A stretch of 28,200 nucleotides of DNA, from the IMG/VR virus record IMGVR_UViG_3300043122_000130, positions 1-28,200 of that record. One strand, 5' to 3'. Shown here piece after piece: positions 4,033 through 18,324 of this stretch. The notes beneath the pieces were generated by a model, which saw only the letters and a program-made list of their open reading frames with translations, had not been told where the DNA came from and did not search any database. A program made the position numbers and the translations under genes. Numbering within the stretch: position 1 is the stretch's first letter; each line of letters starts with the position of its first letter. Origin of the DNA: a virus.

Positions 4033-5151
4033 TCATAATTCATAAATAATTTCATATAGTGTATCAATATGTTCTTGCATTGTAAACCCTTCATACACAA
4101 TTTCTTCATGGTCGTGGTCATTAACCAATTGTTGGAAAGCTTGTGTAATTATTTCAACCTTTGTACGAGTTGATTCTACTTCAATAATTTCCATCGAAGC
4201 TACCATATCATTGTAGGCAACACTTTCCTTAATAGCCTTAACTTGATTACTGTTGTCCAAGTATTTAACCTTGTTACCACATTTAGTTAATTCTTCATAT
4301 TCAGTGAAGTTACTTGTTACAATGTGATTATCATATTTCTCAATGAATTCTTCACCAAATTCCTCTGATACTGAAAGTGTAGAACTATCCGATGTGTACC
4401 ATGAATCCATCACATATTCACAATCTGCTTTCTTAGATTTGATAGCTTCTACCAAAAGTTCCTTATCTGGGCATTGTTTCCAAATTTTAGCTGTAAGACG
4501 ACTTATTTCCCATTGGGAAGCAGAATTACGGTCTTGGTTCAAAGGTAATACTTTTGGTGCAAAATTGTAACTGTATTTGAAAGAGTTGTTTTCACAAACA
4601 TACATATCACCACAGAAGATTTCACCGTTGTCCTCTCCGTGGGCAATTACATCACCATACTTAGTGGAGAATAGTACTTCTCGGTCTTGGAACTCTAAAC
4701 AGCGTTGTTTAACTTCATCAAGAATATCTTCCGACAAACCTGATATAATTACTGTAAAGTTACCCGTAGGAGTAAGAGGCTCTTCTTTAATAACTAATAT
4801 ATCTTCTTCAAAATTTTCACAAAACTCATAAGAAGACTCCCACTTTACTTTGTTATTAATAATCTCTACACTACAACCTAGGTCTGTTAGAACAACGAGT
4901 CCCTGCACGGCACCCAGACCGAATTGGCCGCGTTTGGAGTCATCTGATCGCTTATCTGAGAGTCCCATCATAAGTATAGAAGTTGAGACTTCGATGTTCT
5001 TATTGGTTAAAGAGATATAATCATCTCCGAAATAATGCTCTTGTTCTCCCTCAGAGTCCAACCAATTGCTAATGTATTCAGCAATAGCTTTGCTCGCAGA
5101 CCAATGATGGAAACACCCTCTACTAAAATTAGTCTTATATATTTTACTCAT
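4033..5151 (-). CDS. GHKL-type ATPase, probably T4 rIIA-like
   Basis: This 372-residue protein starts at ATG 5151, which overlaps the previous stop by 8 nt and follows GGAGGCAGTT. The N-terminal 90 residues have the features of a GHKL (gyrase, Hsp90, histidine kinase, MutL) ATP-binding fold: an N-box with E25, N29 and D32 in AEYISNWLD, followed by MMGLSDKRSDDSKRGQFGLG (residues 61-80) as the glycine-rich ATP lid. No histidine-kinase phosphoacceptor, receiver or membrane segment is present. Stand-alone GHKL proteins of this kind in phages are usually annotated as rIIA-like; T4 rIIA is a membrane-associated protein that counters the Rex exclusion system. The rest of the protein is unrecognised. 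Confidence is good for the ATPase fold and moderate for the rIIA relation. Confidence 0.72.
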   Translation of the reverse strand: MSKIYKTNFSRGCFHHWSASKAIAEYISNWLDSEGEQEHYFGDDYISLTNKNIEVSTSILMMGLSDKRSDDSKRGQFGLGAVQGLVVLTDLGCSVEIINNKVKWESSYEFCENFEEDILVIKEEPLTPTGNFTVIISGLSEDILDEVKQRCLEFQDREVLFSTKYGDVIAHGEDNGEIFCGDMYVCENNSFKYSYNFAPKVLPLNQDRNSASQWEISRLTAKIWKQCPDKELLVEAIKSKKADCEYVMDSWYTSDSSTLSVSEEFGEEFIEKYDNHIVTSNFTEYEELTKCGNKVKYLDNSNQVKAIKESVAYNDMVASMEIIEVESTRTKVEIITQAFQQLVNDHDHEEIVYEGFTMQEHIDTLYEIIYEL

Positions 5152-5980
5152 AACTGCCTCCTAATAAACCACCTTGTAGTGTGAAAAGTATTCTTATACT
5201 ATCCGTAGAAGATTTAGCCACATCCTTATGACTAATAGTATTGTATTCATAATTAACGTGGTTGTATACACTCCTTAATATCTCAGAGGATATGTTACCT
5301 GCTGAATACTCTTCTTGCAGTACAGAATATACATGATTTCTTTTATAACGTTCATAAAGTGCTATTAGGTATGTAGCATCTTTCGACCTAACTGCCTTCC
5401 CTTTCTCTAGATGAGTTACCCACTTTTTACCTGCCTGATGCCAAGATACCCCTGCAGTTTTCCTATCCACCCCTAAAGTATTAACTCTTGGTGGTACAAG
5501 ATAACACAGCTCTTTGCAGTATACCTTATTACCTATTCTTGTCAGGTCCTTATCCAGATGTATACCTTTAACCTTGCAATTTTTCTGGGAATAAAACCAC
5601 TCCGCGAAGTTTTGAAAGTTATGCCATTCAGTAGCTACTGTCACCCCCGCCCCTCCATAATTGCAGTAGTCTGGACATATCTCACTGTAACATCTTTTTA
5701 GCATACGAGACCAATATTTGTAAGCAGTATTCTTACCCGAACCATCATCTAGTCTAGTATGGTAAACCCCATAACCAACATAACCCACATCGTATAAGGT
5801 TTTTACTAGAGAATCTTTTACCTGTCCTTTTCTAAGGGTCTGTGCTGATATGTTCCTTTTTCCTCCAGTATTAACAAACTCTACATCAATATCATACTTA
5901 CTATTATACTTAATGACTTTCAAATAACCACACCTATCTGTAGGGTAGATCATACCTTCCTTTATGTTACTAACACCCAC
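5144..5980 (-). CDS. Homing-endonuclease-like protein (HNH/AP2-type phage family)
   Basis: The protein has about 278 residues. GTG 5980 is chosen because AGGAG sits 7 nt before it; TTG 5986 is too close to that site. The pattern matches the phage HNH/AP2 endonuclease family as I know it. It has an N-terminal segment (DRCGYLKVIKYNS, VEFVNTGG), a central YWSRMLKRCYSE and ATEWHNFQNFAEWF, then LDKDLTRIGNKVYC and CYLVPPRVN. A C-terminal AP2-like DNA-binding stretch (GVSWHQAGKKWVTHLEKGK) follows. Such genes are often free-standing mobile elements. This one sits between two small-overlap neighbours and has a promoter-like sequence 44 nt upstream, inside the preceding gene. Nuclease activity is an inference from the family. 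Confidence 0.68.
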   Translation of the reverse strand: MGVSNIKEGMIYPTDRCGYLKVIKYNSKYDIDVEFVNTGGKRNISAQTLRKGQVKDSLVKTLYDVGYVGYGVYHTRLDDGSGKNTAYKYWSRMLKRCYSEICPDYCNYGGAGVTVATEWHNFQNFAEWFYSQKNCKVKGIHLDKDLTRIGNKVYCKELCYLVPPRVNTLGVDRKTAGVSWHQAGKKWVTHLEKGKAVRSKDATYLIALYERYKRNHVYSVLQEEYSAGNISSEILRSVYNHVNYEYNTISHKDVAKSSTDSIRILFTLQGGLLGGSYE

Positions 5981-5982
5981 GA

Positions 5983-6240
5983 TCAATCTCCTAATGTAAA
6001 AGTAATAACATTCTTAGAAGCATCCATTGTAAAATCGACACCCTCTTTTGTCAAGTAGTTTTCAATTGCTCGGAAAGGAATACTTTTTGTAACTTTATCC
6101 TTGTGCAATTGGATCATTCTGCCACTACCATTTCGTGCATGAGCAACCACCACATCTGTAATATAAGTTGAAATGGCTTCAAGGGTTTCCTCTTCCGCTT
6201 CATTGAATGTTTCTGTTAACTGTTGATAAAACTTTGACAT
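5983..6240 (-). CDS. Small phage protein, unrecognised
   Basis: This is an 85-residue protein with its ATG at 6240 behind CAAGGAGAATAATT. It is acidic and mostly helical at first (FYQQLTETFNEAEEETLEAISTY), with a basic middle (HARNGSGRMIQLHKDKVTKS) and a beta-rich end (VDFTMDASKNVITFTLGD). No catalytic motif or membrane segment is visible. Its stop lies within the ribosome site of the endonuclease-like gene, so the two are probably coupled. The coding DNA for residues ~62-72 also holds a minus-strand promoter match. The function is unknown. Confidence 0.72.
   Translation of the reverse strand: MSKFYQQLTETFNEAEEETLEAISTYITDVVVAHARNGSGRMIQLHKDKVTKSIPFRAIENYLTKEGVDFTMDASKNVITFTLGD
6026..6054 (-). 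promoter_or_regulatory. Intragenic sigma-70-type promoter before the endonuclease-like gene
   Basis: On the minus strand TTGACA (6049-6054) is separated by 17 nt from TACAAT (6026-6031). It lies inside the 5983-6240 gene, about 45 nt upstream of GTG 5980. The match is near consensus, but it is in AT-rich coding DNA, so chance is possible. If real, it gives the mobile endonuclease-like gene its own transcription. Confidence 0.45.
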
Positions 6241-12535: not shown

Positions 12536-12588
12536 GTTGAAGAAGAGGAACATTTGCGGAAGAGTGATTAAATTTGAGGAGAAGTGGT

Positions 12589-13074
12589 TTGGGTGATGAT
12601 GTGGTTTTACCAGTAGTGGATATATGGACGGATGGGTCAGCTTTGAAAGCTGCAGAGGGTAAATTTTATTGTGGTGCGGGTGTTGTATTGGTTTATGGGG
12701 AGAAGGTGAAGGAGATTAGCTTACCTCTGGGGTTTGCTACAGTTAATATAGCAGAACTGACAGCACCCATAGAGGGTTTAAAGCAATTAAAAAGGAAGTG
12801 CAGGGTTAATATTATGAGTGACTCACAATACACCATAGACACACAGGAGACTTGGTACAATAACTGGTGCCTTAGAGGTTGGAAAACTCAAGCAGGTGCA
12901 GAAGTGAAAAACAAAGATTTGATACAACTTCTCAAAAAGTTAAGTCTTGAACACGAGGTCACTTGGGTTAAGGTGAAAGGGCATTCAGATCTTCCTTTGA
13001 ACGATCTAGCAGATAAATTGGCTTGTGAGGCAAGTGCCAAAGTTAAGGAGAAAGATATTGAATCAGCAGAATAA
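12589..13074 (+). CDS. Ribonuclease HI
   Basis: The protein has 161 residues. TTG 12589 is chosen with AGGAGA 6 nt upstream; TTG 12574 would include that ribosome site in the coding region. It cuts the RNA strand of RNA-DNA hybrids and so removes replication primers. The four carboxylates of the fold are present: D15 in IWTDGS, E56 in AELTAP, D78 in MSDSQY and D142 in NDLADKLA. H132 in KGHSD is also present. Its size matches E. coli RNase HI (155). It overlaps the start of the primase-helicase gene by 17 nt, so the primer maker and primer remover are probably translated together. T7 uses its gp6 exonuclease for this task. Confidence 0.9.
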   Translation: MGDDVVLPVVDIWTDGSALKAAEGKFYCGAGVVLVYGEKVKEISLPLGFATVNIAELTAPIEGLKQLKRKCRVNIMSDSQYTIDTQETWYNNWCLRGWKTQAGAEVKNKDLIQLLKKLSLEHEVTWVKVKGHSDLPLNDLADKLACEASAKVKEKDIESAE

Positions 13075-13963
13075 ATACCCTGAAGGGTACTATAAGAAAG
13101 GAGCTAATAAAAAGCAGATGACAAATTTTAAGAATAATTCCAATTACTCGCAGGAAACTTTAGAAGAAGTTTTAAACTACCCATGTGAGGCTATAGAAGA
13201 TCGAGGTATTACACAAAAGACTGCTGAGAAGTTTGGAGTGAGAACTAAGTTTAGTGCAAAAGACGGTATCACCCCAGAGGCTTATTACTTCCCTTACTAC
13301 ATGGAAGGGGAATTAGTAGGGTTCAAAAAACGAGACATAACAAAACCTAAACAGCAGAAAGGTCATTTCACCTCAATAGGATTTCAAAGTATTAAATGTG
13401 ATCTTTTTGGCACGGATGTATGTAATAAAACTGGCGGTAAGAAAATATGGGTGTCTGAGGGAGAATTTGATGCTTTAATTATTTGGCAAACCCTGAAAGC
13501 TATGTACCCTCAAGGTAACCCTAATGTTGTTAGCATATCTAATGGGACTGCCAGTGCTGTTCAGAATATAGGTCAGAAAAATAATTTAAAGCATCTTAAA
13601 AAATATTCAGAAGTAATCTTAAGTTTCGATAATGATTCTGCAACAGCTAGTGAAAAAGCTGAGGGTATTATGAAAGGTAAAGAAGCCACTTCTGCGGTGT
13701 ATGGTTTGTTACCTGACATTAAAGTTGTTAGTTTGCCAGAAGATAAAGATCCTTGTGAGGCTTGGAAAGAGCTAGGAGAGAAGGAGTTTTATTGGTGTTT
13801 AATGAAACCTATTCAATATACTCCAGAAGGGTTTGTCAAATATTCGGAAATCCGTGAAAAAGCTATCGAACTTCCTACACTTGGCAAGCCTTGGCCTTGG
13901 GATGCTTTAACTAAAGTAACTCTTGGTAGACGAGTAGGGGAAGGGATTTACTTTGGTGCTGGT
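13058..13963 (+). CDS. Primase-helicase, T7 gp4-like, exon 1
   Basis: This is the first exon, 302 codons, of a 622-residue protein completed by 14842-15804. TTG 13058 is chosen because AAGGAG lies 7 nt upstream and the first residues (MNQQNKYPEGYYKKG) read well. The exon holds a TOPRIM primase core: WVSEGEFDAL (E134, E136) and ILSFDNDSA (D191, D193), which bind the catalytic metals. The N-terminal zinc ribbon of full-length T7 gp4 is absent, as in the short gp4B form, so primer synthesis may need another protein or may be lost. The exon ends at YFGAG, the first half of the Walker A loop. Without splicing the frame stops 3 codons later. Confidence 0.88.
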
Positions 13964-14059
13964 AAACATTTTTAATGCCAGCCTAACAAGAAATTGTTAG
14001 AAAACAACTATGTGAACTCAGGGGAACTCTAGAACAGACAATCCTGAGCTAAGTTACCA

Positions 14060-14088
14060 TTGACAAACCCTGTTATTTAAGATAGAAT
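14060..14088 (+). promoter_or_regulatory. Promoter inside the intron, for the HNH gene
   Basis: TTGACA (14060-14065), 17 nt, TAGAAT (14083-14088), 29 nt before ATG 14118. The -35 box overlaps the inner end of the 5' P6 strand. This gives the endonuclease a transcript separate from the helicase message; in T4 td the I-TevI gene likewise has its own promoter within the intron. Confidence 0.6.
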
Positions 14089-14117
14089 GAAGTTTTAAAT
14101 AGTAAGGTTGATTGATA

Positions 14118-14639
14118 ATGATTGAAGAGTGGAAAGAAATTGAAGGTTTTAGTAATTATTTTATCTCATCTTTTGGGAGTGTTAAAAGTCTTAAAAGAAA
14201 GGTTCCAAGAATACTACTACCTGATTTAAACAAAGAAGGTTATTTAAGAGTTTCTTTAAGTGATAACGGCAAAGTGTCTAGGTTTAGTGTACATAGATTA
14301 GTTGCTTTACATTATAAAGATAACCCAAAGAATGAGCCTTTTGTTAATCACAAAGACGGAGATAAACAAAACAACAATTCAGATAATCTAGAGTGGTGTA
14401 GCTGTTCTTATAACACAATACATGCTTTTGAGAATGGATTACGTATACACGGAGAACTTGCACCTAATGCACAGTTAACTGATGAGATTGTTGTTAAAGT
14501 TTGTGAACTGATTCAATCAGGTTTGAAAAGAAAGCAGATATTAGATTTAAAATTACACGAAGCATTAAACAAAAGTAAGTTTGATGATATAAGATCTAGG
14601 AAATGCTGGAAAAGAATAAGTATTAATTATCAATGGTAA
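14118..14639 (+). CDS. Intron-encoded HNH homing endonuclease (NUMOD4 + HNH)
   Basis: The protein has 173 residues; ATG 14118 has AAGG 10 nt upstream, and the TTG two codons earlier is poorer. Residues 2-27 (EEWKEIEGFSNYFISSFGSV) form a NUMOD4 DNA-binding motif. Residues 57-93 form the HNH nuclease: FSVHRLVALHY, then VNHKDGDKQNNNSDNLEW. A C-terminal helical part (ELAPNAQLTDEIVVKVCELI, RKQILDL) resembles the helix-turn-helix region seen in related intron enzymes. It should cut the intronless helicase gene near the Walker A codons and so spread the intron. Its stop codon and last two codons form the 3' strand of intron stem P6, so RNA structure constrains the protein's C-terminus. Confidence 0.9.
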   Translation: MIEEWKEIEGFSNYFISSFGSVKSLKRKVPRILLPDLNKEGYLRVSLSDNGKVSRFSVHRLVALHYKDNPKNEPFVNHKDGDKQNNNSDNLEWCSCSYNTIHAFENGLRIHGELAPNAQLTDEIVVKVCELIQSGLKRKQILDLKLHEALNKSKFDDIRSRKCWKRISINYQW

Positions 14640-14841
14640 AAAGTGCAACGACTATCGAAACCACATCGTGAGATGGAAGGGAGTAGAGTACACCCAAGTG
14701 GGTGGAAGCGCATAGCCCTTAGCAAGTAATGTTGAAGGTGAAGATATAGTCTGAACTTCTGTGGGGACACAGAGACGCAGCTAACGTTGTGAAAACGTCA
14801 GTGATGCTGGTGTGGATTAACGAACCACATTGAACAAATTG

Positions 14842-15804
14842 GTTAAAATGGGAAAGAGTGTTATAGTAGATACACTCACAGAACATATTATCTCCACAGA
14901 GAAAAACAAGTTTGGTGATCCTCAGAAAGTAGCTCTATTCAAGTTTGAAGAGCAACCTGATGAAACTATTAAGAAAGTGGCAGGTAAGTTTTACAAAAAG
15001 GATTTCTCTAATCCAGAGAAAATTATCTTCATAAGTAGTGAAGGGAAAGAAGTTGATATCTGGGGAAATGAGATTAGAGACAACCAGAACTATTTCTCAC
15101 ACGAAGAACTTGTCAAGGCTGTAGACAGTGTTGGTGATAGCGTAGTAATGTATAACAACTACGGTAGATGTAACTGGGATGAATTAAAAGGTGCTATCCG
15201 TCATGCAGTATTAGTTGAGCATGTAGAAGATATTGTAATAGATCCTGTAACTCGTTTAACAGCAGGTATGACTGCAGCGGAAGCAAACACAGAGCTTGAA
15301 AGATTTGCTGATGAAATTAGTAAGATGAGCCAAGACTTAGGTTTTACATATTATTGTTTCTGTCACCTTAAAGCACCTGAGGGTAAACCTCATGAATTAG
15401 GAGCTAAAGTATTTTCTTCTCAATTCCGTGGATCTCGTGCTATGATGCAAGCCTGTTTCTACATGATAGGTCTGGAAGGCAATAAAGATCCAGAAGAACC
15501 TGAGAAAGTTCAGAATACAAGGCACCTTGTTGTGCTTGATGATAGGAAGTTTGGCAGAACTGCTCGTATACCTTTATTTTATGATGTAGACACTGGGGTG
15601 TTTGCTGAACCGCCTGAGGGTTTCTTAGAGGATGAGTATGCTCAGAGGTTATCGGAATGGACAGTTACTGCACCAGTACAAGAAAGTCTTATCAGACAAC
15701 CTGAAAACGTTTCTATCGAAGTGTTTGAGGAGGGGGTTAATGACACTGTGGACTACCAATCTATAGATGAGGATTTTAGTGATGAAGAATTACCATTTGA
15801 ATAA
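14842..15804 (+). CDS. Primase-helicase, T7 gp4-like, exon 2 (DnaB-type helicase domain)
   Basis: This is the second exon, 320 codons plus stop. It completes Walker A (VKMGKS, lysine 307 of the joined protein) and holds the rest of a hexameric RecA-type 5'-3' helicase: Walker B-like DIVIDPVTRLTAG, FCHLKAP, and SSQFRGSRAMMQACFYMIGL. The segment VVLDDRKFGRTARIPLFYDVDTG corresponds to the T7 gp4 region ending in the arginine finger and YNKETG-like strand. The C-terminus (DEDFSDEELPFE) is an acidic tail resembling SSB tails, which in T7 gp4 binds the polymerase. A frame opening at TTG 14830 inside the intron has no ribosome site and is not a real start. The DNA polymerase gene begins 10 nt after the stop. 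Confidence 0.9.
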   Translation, partial: VKMGKSVIVDTLTEHIISTEKNKFGDPQKVALFKFEEQPDETIKKVAGKFYKKDFSNPEKIIFISSEGKEVDIWGNEIRDNQNYFSHEELVKAVDSVGDSVVMYNNYGRCNWDELKGAIRHAVLVEHVEDIVIDPVTRLTAGMTAAEANTELERFADEISKMSQDLGFTYYCFCHLKAPEGKPHELGAKVFSSQFRGSRAMMQACFYMIGLEGNKDPEEPEKVQNTRHLVVLDDRKFGRTARIPLFYDVDTGVFAEPPEGFLEDEYAQRLSEWTVTAPVQESLIRQPENVSIEVFEEGVNDTVDYQSIDEDFSDEELPFE

Positions 15805-15813
15805 GGAGTTTGT

Positions 15814-18324
15814 ATGGCAAAGTTTGTTTTCGATTTAGAGACTACAGGTTTAATGAACTCTTCTAGTATCGATTATACTAAAGAAGGTTACCCATTAAGA
15901 GAAGATTTTAAAATCCATTGTGTGGTGGCTCAAGATGTAGACACTAAAAGGATCTTTGCTTTCTATGACGGGGAGAAGTACGATATAATTTGTTCCAAAA
16001 CAAGTAAACGTATTAACTATACTCATCTACCTCTAGAAGACTTTAAACGTGTACTTAACAGTGCTAAGTCATTGATAGGGCACAATATTCTGAATTATGA
16101 TCTGCTTGTTCTAAAGAAATACTGGGGTATTGATTATACTGTCGGGGAGAAAGAGGGTGTAGAAGACACTGTTAATGGTAGAGAGTGTTACTTGGATGAC
16201 ACCCTTGTGAAGAGTAAACTCCTTAATCCTGATAGGCAAGGAGGTCACAGCTTAGCTAATTTTGGTAAGTTATTACAATTCAAAAAAGGTGATTATGGTA
16301 AAGAAGATAATGCTTGGGATAAGTTCTCTAAGGAAATGCTTGCTTACTGTATCGATGATGTAAGATTAAACACTCTTGTACATGAGCGTCTTAACAAAGA
16401 ATGGGGTGATTGGGATTGGGGTGATGCCTATAGGTTAGAGAAAGCTACGAAAGAGTTAGTTACAAGAGGGGAGCAGAGAGGTTACTACTTTGATAAAGAG
16501 TTAGCGGAATGGTGTGAGGAAGATCTGAATAACAAACTTAAAGTTATTGAAGAAAAAGTTACTCCTCTTCTACCTCGTAAAACTCTACCTAAGAGCAAGC
16601 AACCTACTTTCCCAGCTAAACCTTTCTCAGGTGATGGATCTATTTCCGCAAATGGTTGGAATTTTTTAGAGAATCATTTAGGTTACAAGGTTAATAGAGA
16701 AGCTTTAGAGATTGTAGTTCCTCCTAAAACTTCTTTTAAAGGTGACGGAACTTTAAGTAAAGCAGGTATTAACTTTTGTATTAAAGAAGGTTGTGAAGAC
16801 GAGGAGTTGATGCCTGAGTTTATACGTTCCAGACTTAAACGTGTTCAAGAGTTATCTCCATTACCTGAGGATGAACTTGTTAAGGCGAAAGAAGATTTAA
16901 GAAATGGTGTTATGCCTGATCTAACTACCCCTATGACATTAGCAGATCAGAAGGAACTCAAAGAGTATTTAGTAACTTTAGGGTGGAACCCTTTGGTTTG
17001 GTCAGAAGATGATTTAAGACTTGATAAAAAAACAAAGAAACCTGTCTCTCAAGAACAGTATGAAACTAGGGTTGAGAGATATGTTAAAGAAACTTTAGAA
17101 AGTCCTTTCTGTAAATATAGGTGTGAATTCTTAGGTGTTAAACCAGAGGGATTAAAAGCTAAGCTTATGAACCATGATATAAGTAGACCTCTTAAAAGGT
17201 ATGGTAGCCCTAAATACACTATAGACTTAGAGAAAACTATAGACCCTAATTTGAAAAAACTAGGAGAGAAGGTTGAGTGGGTGAAAGATGTTGTTGATTG
17301 GTTAACCTACAGACACAGACGTAATGCAATCCACTCCCCTCCTAATGCCAGTAAGAAAGAATGGAGTGGTTGGTTAACAAACAAAAGGATTTTAGAAGAT
17401 AATCGTATACCTACGCCAGCAGATACGTGCGGGGCTAGTACGGGGCGTTTTACACATATAGATATTTGTAATATTCCCAGAGTATCAAGCACTTACGGCA
17501 AATACATGAGAGCTTTATTTGGTGTTGATCCAGAAACTCATTATCAAGTAGGTATGGATTTCGACAGTTTAGAGGCTAAGATTGAAGCTCATTTCTGTTA
17601 TCCTTACAAAGGAGGTGTTGAGTATGGTGTTAGTTTAACAGCAGCTAAACCTAATGATATTCACTCTGTAAATGCGAGGAAAATGGGTGTAGATAGGGAC
17701 TCAGCTAAAACTTTAAAATATGCAAGCTCATACGGTGCCCAGCCACCTAAGTTAGCTAAACAAATGAACTGGCCTCTTGAGAAGGCTAAACAAGTCTTTG
17801 AAGCTTTCTGGGAAGCATCTTCACCTTTAAAAAGTTGTTTAGATACAACGAAAAAGGAATGGGAGAATAATCGTAAAAAGTACATTAAAGGGTTAGATGG
17901 GAGAAAACTTTTTGTAAGAAGTCCCCACTCAATTGGGAACATGTTATTCCAAAACGCTGGCGTGACATGTGCTAAACGTGCTGCTGTTTGGTGGGATAGA
18001 CAAGTACAAAAGGAATGTTTGAAAGGCGTCAATATGATGTGTATGTACCATGATGAGCAACAAACAGAAGATTTAAAAGAAAACGTTAAATTTAAAATGT
18101 TCTCTGATGAAGAGTCTGCTATTAGTTGGAAGAAAACACATGAAGAAAGTACTGGTAAAATCTTATCTGATGTCGGTCACAAAGGTGATAAATACTTTGT
18201 CGCCTACTGCAGATCAGGTGAATTAGCAGCTTTAAGTTGCGGCTATGCAAGCAGTTATTATAACTTAAACGTAGAATTAAGTGGCGGCTATATCCTCGGT
18301 AGAAACTGGGCTGACTGTCATTGA
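15814..18324 (+). CDS. DNA polymerase, family A, T7 gp5-like
   Basis: The 836-residue replicative polymerase starts at ATG 15814 behind AAGGAGTTTGT. The N-terminal 3'-5' proofreading exonuclease has FDLETTG (D7, E9), LIGHNILNYD and YCIDDVRLN. The polymerase domain has motif A VGMDFDSLEAKI (D582), motif B DRDSAKTLKYASSYG (R628, K632, YG) and motif C MYHDE (H746-E748). There is no 5' nuclease domain. The final GRNWADCH matches the T7 gp5 end GPNWAICH, which helps fix the lineage. The segment between motif C and that end is about 40 residues longer than in T7 (704 residues in all). T7 polymerase uses host thioredoxin as clamp; whether this one does cannot be told. Confidence 0.95.
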   Translation: MAKFVFDLETTGLMNSSSIDYTKEGYPLREDFKIHCVVAQDVDTKRIFAFYDGEKYDIICSKTSKRINYTHLPLEDFKRVLNSAKSLIGHNILNYDLLVLKKYWGIDYTVGEKEGVEDTVNGRECYLDDTLVKSKLLNPDRQGGHSLANFGKLLQFKKGDYGKEDNAWDKFSKEMLAYCIDDVRLNTLVHERLNKEWGDWDWGDAYRLEKATKELVTRGEQRGYYFDKELAEWCEEDLNNKLKVIEEKVTPLLPRKTLPKSKQPTFPAKPFSGDGSISANGWNFLENHLGYKVNREALEIVVPPKTSFKGDGTLSKAGINFCIKEGCEDEELMPEFIRSRLKRVQELSPLPEDELVKAKEDLRNGVMPDLTTPMTLADQKELKEYLVTLGWNPLVWSEDDLRLDKKTKKPVSQEQYETRVERYVKETLESPFCKYRCEFLGVKPEGLKAKLMNHDISRPLKRYGSPKYTIDLEKTIDPNLKKLGEKVEWVKDVVDWLTYRHRRNAIHSPPNASKKEWSGWLTNKRILEDNRIPTPADTCGASTGRFTHIDICNIPRVSSTYGKYMRALFGVDPETHYQVGMDFDSLEAKIEAHFCYPYKGGVEYGVSLTAAKPNDIHSVNARKMGVDRDSAKTLKYASSYGAQPPKLAKQMNWPLEKAKQVFEAFWEASSPLKSCLDTTKKEWENNRKKYIKGLDGRKLFVRSPHSIGNMLFQNAGVTCAKRAAVWWDRQVQKECLKGVNMMCMYHDEQQTEDLKENVKFKMFSDEESAISWKKTHEESTGKILSDVGHKGDKYFVAYCRSGELAALSCGYASSYYNLNVELSGGYILGRNWADCH

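Follow-up and report, generated by a model that had tools for sequence, protein, structure and literature searches.

Results

A primase-helicase gene divided within its P-loop

Can a phage primase-helicase gene that is broken inside its Walker A motif still be read as one gene, and what is the DNA that divides it? We addressed this question in 28.2 kb of a viral contig (the window), in which the primase-helicase gene lies in two pieces, with an RNase H-like gene (12574-13074) on one side and a gene for DNA polymerase (15814-18324) on the other, and in which gene calling gives three separate ORFs across the primase-helicase and the DNA that interrupts it (Table 1). The phrog_239 profile was matched at positions 80-366 by the first primase-helicase ORF and at positions 368-633 by the second, so the gene is broken between neighbouring profile positions. 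Removal of 13964-14841 gave a single 622-codon open frame containing GEGIYFGAGVKMGKSVIVD and encoding the P-loop GAGVKMGKS. The best PDB matches of the joined protein were to T7 gp4 (E=7e-18, residues 44-575), with the T7 P-loop SGMGKS aligned to the restored P-loop, and both the PDB matches and phrog_239 gave the gp4-type order of a Toprim domain followed by a RecA-like helicase domain with Walker A. These results agree with a first-pass annotation of this DNA, which had described two exons of a T7-like (gp4-type) helicase joined in phase inside Walker A; the same motif is read in intronless relatives. A T7-type N-terminal zinc-binding domain was not evident from alignment to T7 gp4 or from inspection of cysteines, because the alignment begins at T7 residue 79; the first 43 residues of the joined protein contain only one cysteine. 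Judged by its sequence, the joined protein is gp4-like and not a full gp4A.

The first-pass annotation had also proposed that unspliced message would give a helicase lacking ATP binding. The reading frame contradicts this proposal: translation of the unspliced frame halts three codons into the intron (GAG-KHF-stop) and, because of the in-frame UAA, unspliced mRNA would yield a 305-residue primase-only protein.

Table 1. Coordinates of the primase-helicase exons, the intron and its parts in the window.
Feature	Position	Strand	Evidence or remark
5′ exon, primase-helicase	13058..13963	+	302 codons, TTG start, Toprim domain; phrog_239 E=1.8e-73; Toprim_2
P1 exon strand GCUGGU	13958..13963	+	6/6 pairs with IGS, U.G at splice site
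Group I intron, 878 nt, terminal G (omega-G)	13964..14841	+	RF00028 E=1.1e-6; covarying helices in relatives; same-site homologues
P10 5′ strand UUUUAAU	13970..13976	+	7 bp with GUUAAAA 14842-14848
In-frame UAA stop, P1 loop	13973..13975	+	Unspliced frame translates to end GAGKHF*
P1 internal guide (IGS) GCCAGC	13977..13982	+	Exon covariation in L119/L020 (GCGGGU/GCCCGC), L130, L009
P2 hairpin CUAACAA-GAAA-UUGUUAG	13983..14000	+	Read from sequence
P3 5′ strand CUAUGUG	14008..14014	+	3′ strand CGCAUAG 14709-14715; 56/56 pairs in 8 introns; swapped strands 61%
P4 (CUCAGG/CCUGAG) and P5 (UCU/AGA)	14017..14048	+	Covarying
P6 5′ strand UUACCAUUGA	14054..14063	+	10/10 with 14630-14639; helix kept by unrelated sequences in other introns
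NUMOD4 + HNH_3 homing endonuclease, 173 aa, in P6 loop	14118..14639	+	PF07463 9e-13; PF13392 5.7e-7; phrog_59
P6 3′ strand UCAAUGGUAA	14630..14639	+	Overlaps final codons and stop of HNH gene
P7 5′ strand GACUAU	14650..14655	+	3′ strand AUAGUC 14746-14751; RF00028 alignment; identical in 7 introns compared
P8 hairpin CCUU...AAGG	14717..14738	+	Covarying
P9 hairpin UCUGUG-GGGA-CACAGA	14758..14773	+	Sequence reading and RF00028 alignment
P9.2-type hairpin GUGUGG...CCACAU	14810..14830	+	49/49 pairs in 8 introns
3′ exon, primase-helicase (VKMGKS..., RecA-like helicase domain)	14842..15804	+	phrog_239 E=1e-62; T7 gp4 alignment

Splice sites and the P1 and P10 helices

Exon 1 ends in GGTGCTGGT at 13963, the intron starts with AAACATTTTTAAT and exon 2 starts with GTTAAAATGGGA at 14842, so that G 14841 is the final intron base and the exon junction joins GGT to GTT in frame. 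The splice sites after T 13963 and G 14841 had been placed there before our analysis, and these coordinates proved exact, with empty alleles continuous at the codon concerned. Both boundaries have the group I hallmarks: the 5′ splice site follows a U that is paired to G in P1, and the intron ends in G. The earlier proposal that P1 and P10 both pair fully was also borne out in the window, where P10 is one base pair longer than had been described. P1 was complete in 8/8 introns tabulated. A 6-bp P1 arose in 11% of shuffled sequences, the window P10 alone had a shuffle p-value of 0.015, and a 6-bp P1 directly adjacent to a 6-bp P10 was found in 0.02% of shuffles. The P10 pairing was absent from the introns at the same site in phages A5-4, UPEC06, A7_1 and W70, and a compensated version (UUGAU/GUCAA) was found in L020 only. 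We therefore reject P10 as a general feature of these introns and regard it as weaker support than P1, because it is unconserved among same-site introns.

A covarying group I ribozyme core

An Rfam scan matched RF00028 on the correct strand (E=1.1e-6), giving the match that the first-pass annotation had anticipated, at a score of 35 bits that lies under the 50-bit gathering score. The match was split by the ORF, with a separate second match for P4-P6 at 14018-14109. The ORF-less intron at the same site in W70 scored 70.4 bits, above the gathering score. Helices P3-P8, including the guanosine site in P7, were present in the window and in its relatives, and covariation across related introns was found for P1, P3, P4, P5, P6, P8 and P9.2, with six sequence versions each of P3 and P6 and seven each of P8 and P9.2. 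Hairpins lie between P7 and the 3′ strand of P3, an arrangement typical of subgroup IA.

Pairing was 94-100% in cognate strands versus 46-82% when strands were swapped between introns; the cognate values are partly so by construction, because the strands were picked by hand, and the weight rests on the swapped-strand values and on the independent Rfam matches. The MAFFT alignment was not used for pair counts because it moved P3 by one column in L119, L130 and L009. Thus the identification of 13964-14841 as a group I intron in the first-pass annotation is backed by Rfam, by the covarying core and by intronless relatives.

An HNH endonuclease gene in the P6 loop

The first-pass annotation had passed over an endonuclease gene inside the intron. 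Its ORF is intact over 173 aa, both its NUMOD4 and HNH_3 domains exceed the Pfam cut-offs, and the closest solved relative of the protein is I-HmuI (1u3e, E=2.6e-17). The last ten bases of the gene, including its stop codon (TCAATGGTAA), form the 3′ strand of P6. The presence of this gene in the intron would make the intron a mobile one. HNH proteins were found in all same-site introns but that of W70; the window protein was only 43-44% identical to those of the E. coli phages. In the HNH tree, the only supported groups were A5-4/UPEC06/A7_1/L193 and two smaller ones, and the tree gave no resolution on whether introns at the window site form a single clade. The window also has another HNH endonuclease gene, this one free-standing (phrog_2081; 5144-5986, minus strand).

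Filled and empty P-loops in related phages

Relatives were found with a 3′-exon pattern that excludes empty sites and by tblastn with the joined protein. Introns at the exact phosphate used in the window were present in the E. coli Vequintavirinae A5-4 (749 nt), UPEC06 (753 nt), A7_1 (750 nt) and W70 (283 nt; no ORF, whole ribozyme kept), and in at least three metagenomic contigs, L119 (789 nt), L130 (775 nt) and L020 (1367 nt); the intron in L029 is truncated by the contig end. Three further introns lay downstream, that of L226 by 2 nt (GGTGT|A) and those of L009 and L193 by 12 nt (GGT|AAA of GKS). At all three insertion positions joining restored GxGVKMGKS (11/11 introns), and the guide tracked the exon, with GCCAGC for GCUGGU, GCCCGC for GCGGGU and GCCCAU for AUGGGU. 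The HNH proteins of L193 (12-nt site) and A5-4 (window site) are 70% identical and form a fully supported clade, which argues that one intron lineage occupies two positions of the P-loop motif. A further contig carries an in-frame Hint/LAGLIDADG intein in the P-loop of this helicase family (L178:2030-3000); it is inserted at GK|S, 15 nt farther downstream than the window intron.

Rather than keeping the 878 nt as coding sequence, which the first-pass annotation had named as a refuting observation, close relatives had an empty and continuous site. GAGVKMGKS was uninterrupted in the intronless contigs L002-L007 and in Vibrio phage 11895-B1, and no intron was present at the window site in A73 and LTH01, two E. 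coli phages closely related to the A5-4 group. Among the best 80 viral loci for the helicase (tblastn), 74 were called continuous, and the other 6 were interrupted or truncated. The automatic call for L178 was continuous despite its in-frame intein, and exclusion of the contig-end cases L184 and L234 left four clear introns and one intein, counts that do not amount to a rate because many loci are near-duplicates. The contig L184, left out of the counts, begins at the exact first base of exon 2 (L184:1-20), which perhaps reflects an assembly break at an intron carried by only part of the population.

Several other insertions were also seen. The L020 intron (reverse strand) holds two endonuclease genes, an HNH gene in P6 and a LAGLIDADG ORF whose insertion point follows CAACGACTA and either adjoins or falls within the 5′ strand of P7. 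The W70 helicase gene contains an additional HNH group I intron, after the MMR codons (GATGCGT|AAT; L012:3211-4057), and L195 and L202 have introns at this downstream position. A Pakpunavirus DNA polymerase intron (L167:1470-2190) has the P1 AUGGGU/GCCCAU in common with the helicase introns of the 12-nt site, a possible sign of a route between genes. The terminase gene of Vibrio phage 277E43-1 (L166:1506-2430) contains an apparent intein inside Walker A (GSAG|C...GN|SGKS) and, directly after FIGFDEL in the Walker B region, a group I-like intron.

Exon sequence next to the intron in E. coli phages

Across the 110 nt that lead up to the site, the four intron-carrying E. coli phage alleles, which are of the Septuagintavirus type, are identical to each other and differ from the intronless alleles of A73 and LTH01 by 12.7% and 7.3%, respectively; farther upstream, UPEC06 is identical to LTH01 over 590 nt. 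Comparison of A5-4 with A73 over 1182 positions gave 28 differences, of which 17 lie no more than 100 nt from the site (Fisher 1.6e-7). No position differs between +54 and +591, and each of the 27 changed codons is synonymous. This block fits co-conversion of flanking exon during homing, a reading suggested by the sequence patterns that is not exclusive, since recombinational acquisition of an intronless allele would also produce it. A73 and LTH01 themselves show somewhat more differences near the site (7% versus 3%); therefore, the intronless alleles may have been diversified there. The tract belongs to relatives and not to the window's own lineage, for which the nearest empty allele, L002, has only about 73-77% DNA identity.

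Discussion

Weighing the explanations

Three separate ORFs in gene calls could reflect a pseudogene or an assembly artefact, that is, a frameshifted helicase and a chance HNH gene. The relatives already refute this explanation, to which we give practically no credence: the joining is exact and in frame, the core covaries, and same-site introns occur in independent isolates and contigs. An insertion that does not splice, leaving a split gene that makes separate primase and helicase polypeptides, has a precedent in the mobE-split nrdA of phage Aeh1 (PMC7344957). Each half would be translatable here, given the stop of exon 1 and the in-frame starts of exon 2 at TTG 14830 and ATG 14848, and one HNH-bearing insertion in phage CB7 failed to splice (PMC7344957). 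Such a split would nevertheless part GAG from VKMGKS inside the P-loop, and it sits poorly with a covarying ribozyme core and in-frame joints at three insertion positions. It also fails to account for the ORF-less W70 copy, which retains a whole ribozyme although an insertion serving only the endonuclease would have no use for one. We consider it very improbable.

A degenerate intron that still splices, with an inactive HNH gene and vertical inheritance in place of homing, is unlikely but deserves more thought. No homing tract was found for the window among empty close relatives, loss and vertical inheritance look alike at 73-77% DNA identity, and W70 exemplifies loss of the ORF. On the other hand, the HNH ORF of the window is intact over its full length with both domains above their Pfam cut-offs, and related introns at the same site are flanked by apparent tracts of recent homing. 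Taken as a whole, splicing and homing included, the window very probably contains a mobile group I intron in the primase-helicase P-loop.

From sequence we infer splicing, nuclease activity and the nuclease cut site of this mobile intron, which would act as follows. The intron RNA would fold in the primase-helicase transcript, with exon 1 GCUGGU paired to the guide GCCAGC, and two guanosine-initiated transesterifications would join GGU to GUU and restore GAGVKMGKS. In co-infections, the I-HmuI-type HNH protein would cut or nick intronless helicase alleles close to the P-loop codons, and repair of the cut allele would copy the intron and flanking exon into the intronless helicase gene. The exon tract seen in the relatives speaks indirectly for such cleavage near the insertion site.

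Relation to known phage introns

The element is of a known kind. Phage HNH introns such as that of the SPO1 DNA polymerase gene (with I-HmuI), and the T4 td, nrdB and nrdD introns as the general model, resemble the window intron in their group I core, U.G 5′ splice site, omega-G and ORF in a peripheral loop, with an HNH protein similar to I-HmuI. What differs is the host gene, a primase-helicase, and the site, the Walker A motif; according to a review (PMC3984707), the usual hosts of phage introns are genes for DNA polymerase, ribonucleotide reductase and terminase. In the same phage neighbourhood as the window, the Vequintavirinae phage CB7 has HNH-type introns in its terminase, DNA polymerase and nrdA/nrdB genes, and splicing of those in terminase, DNA polymerase and nrdB was shown by RT-PCR (PMC7344957). 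No Walker A interruption was reported for the CB7 primase-helicase (PMC7344957), whose exon-2 part was covered in one piece by tblastn. The unannotated introns of A5-4, UPEC06, W70 and A7_1 share the exact site and a homologous core with the window intron and, except in W70, the HNH gene. The paper describing A5-4, A7-1, A73 and W70 mentions neither introns nor HNH genes, and it ascribes to A73 and W70 "different DNA helicases", read as different replication strategies (PMC11370258); this difference is likely an intron artefact, because the helicase gene calls are split. We found no prior report of the helicase P-loop insertion site in the open-access literature.

The interesting part is the repeated use of the P-loop. 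P-loop inteins such as that of L178 follow the same target logic, an unchangeable motif, but splice as protein whereas the window element would splice as RNA. We see a real, if slightly less than even, chance that phage primase-helicases have in their P-loop a hotspot that was colonised more than once and by different routes (three intron positions spanning 12 nt, two of them used by one lineage, and an intein at GK|S). Endonucleases would target codons that are fixed at the amino-acid level and that the phage cannot do without, while the RNAs of the introns would re-target within the motif by guide changes.

These findings extend the range of sites occupied by phage group I introns to the P-loop of a replicative helicase. 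They also caution that, where a "DNA primase/helicase" is annotated in pieces in these phages, the division is probably an artefact of an intron. With matched filled, empty and ORF-less alleles, and with a visible tract that fits co-conversion, the cultured E. coli phages offer a natural system for homing and re-targeting.
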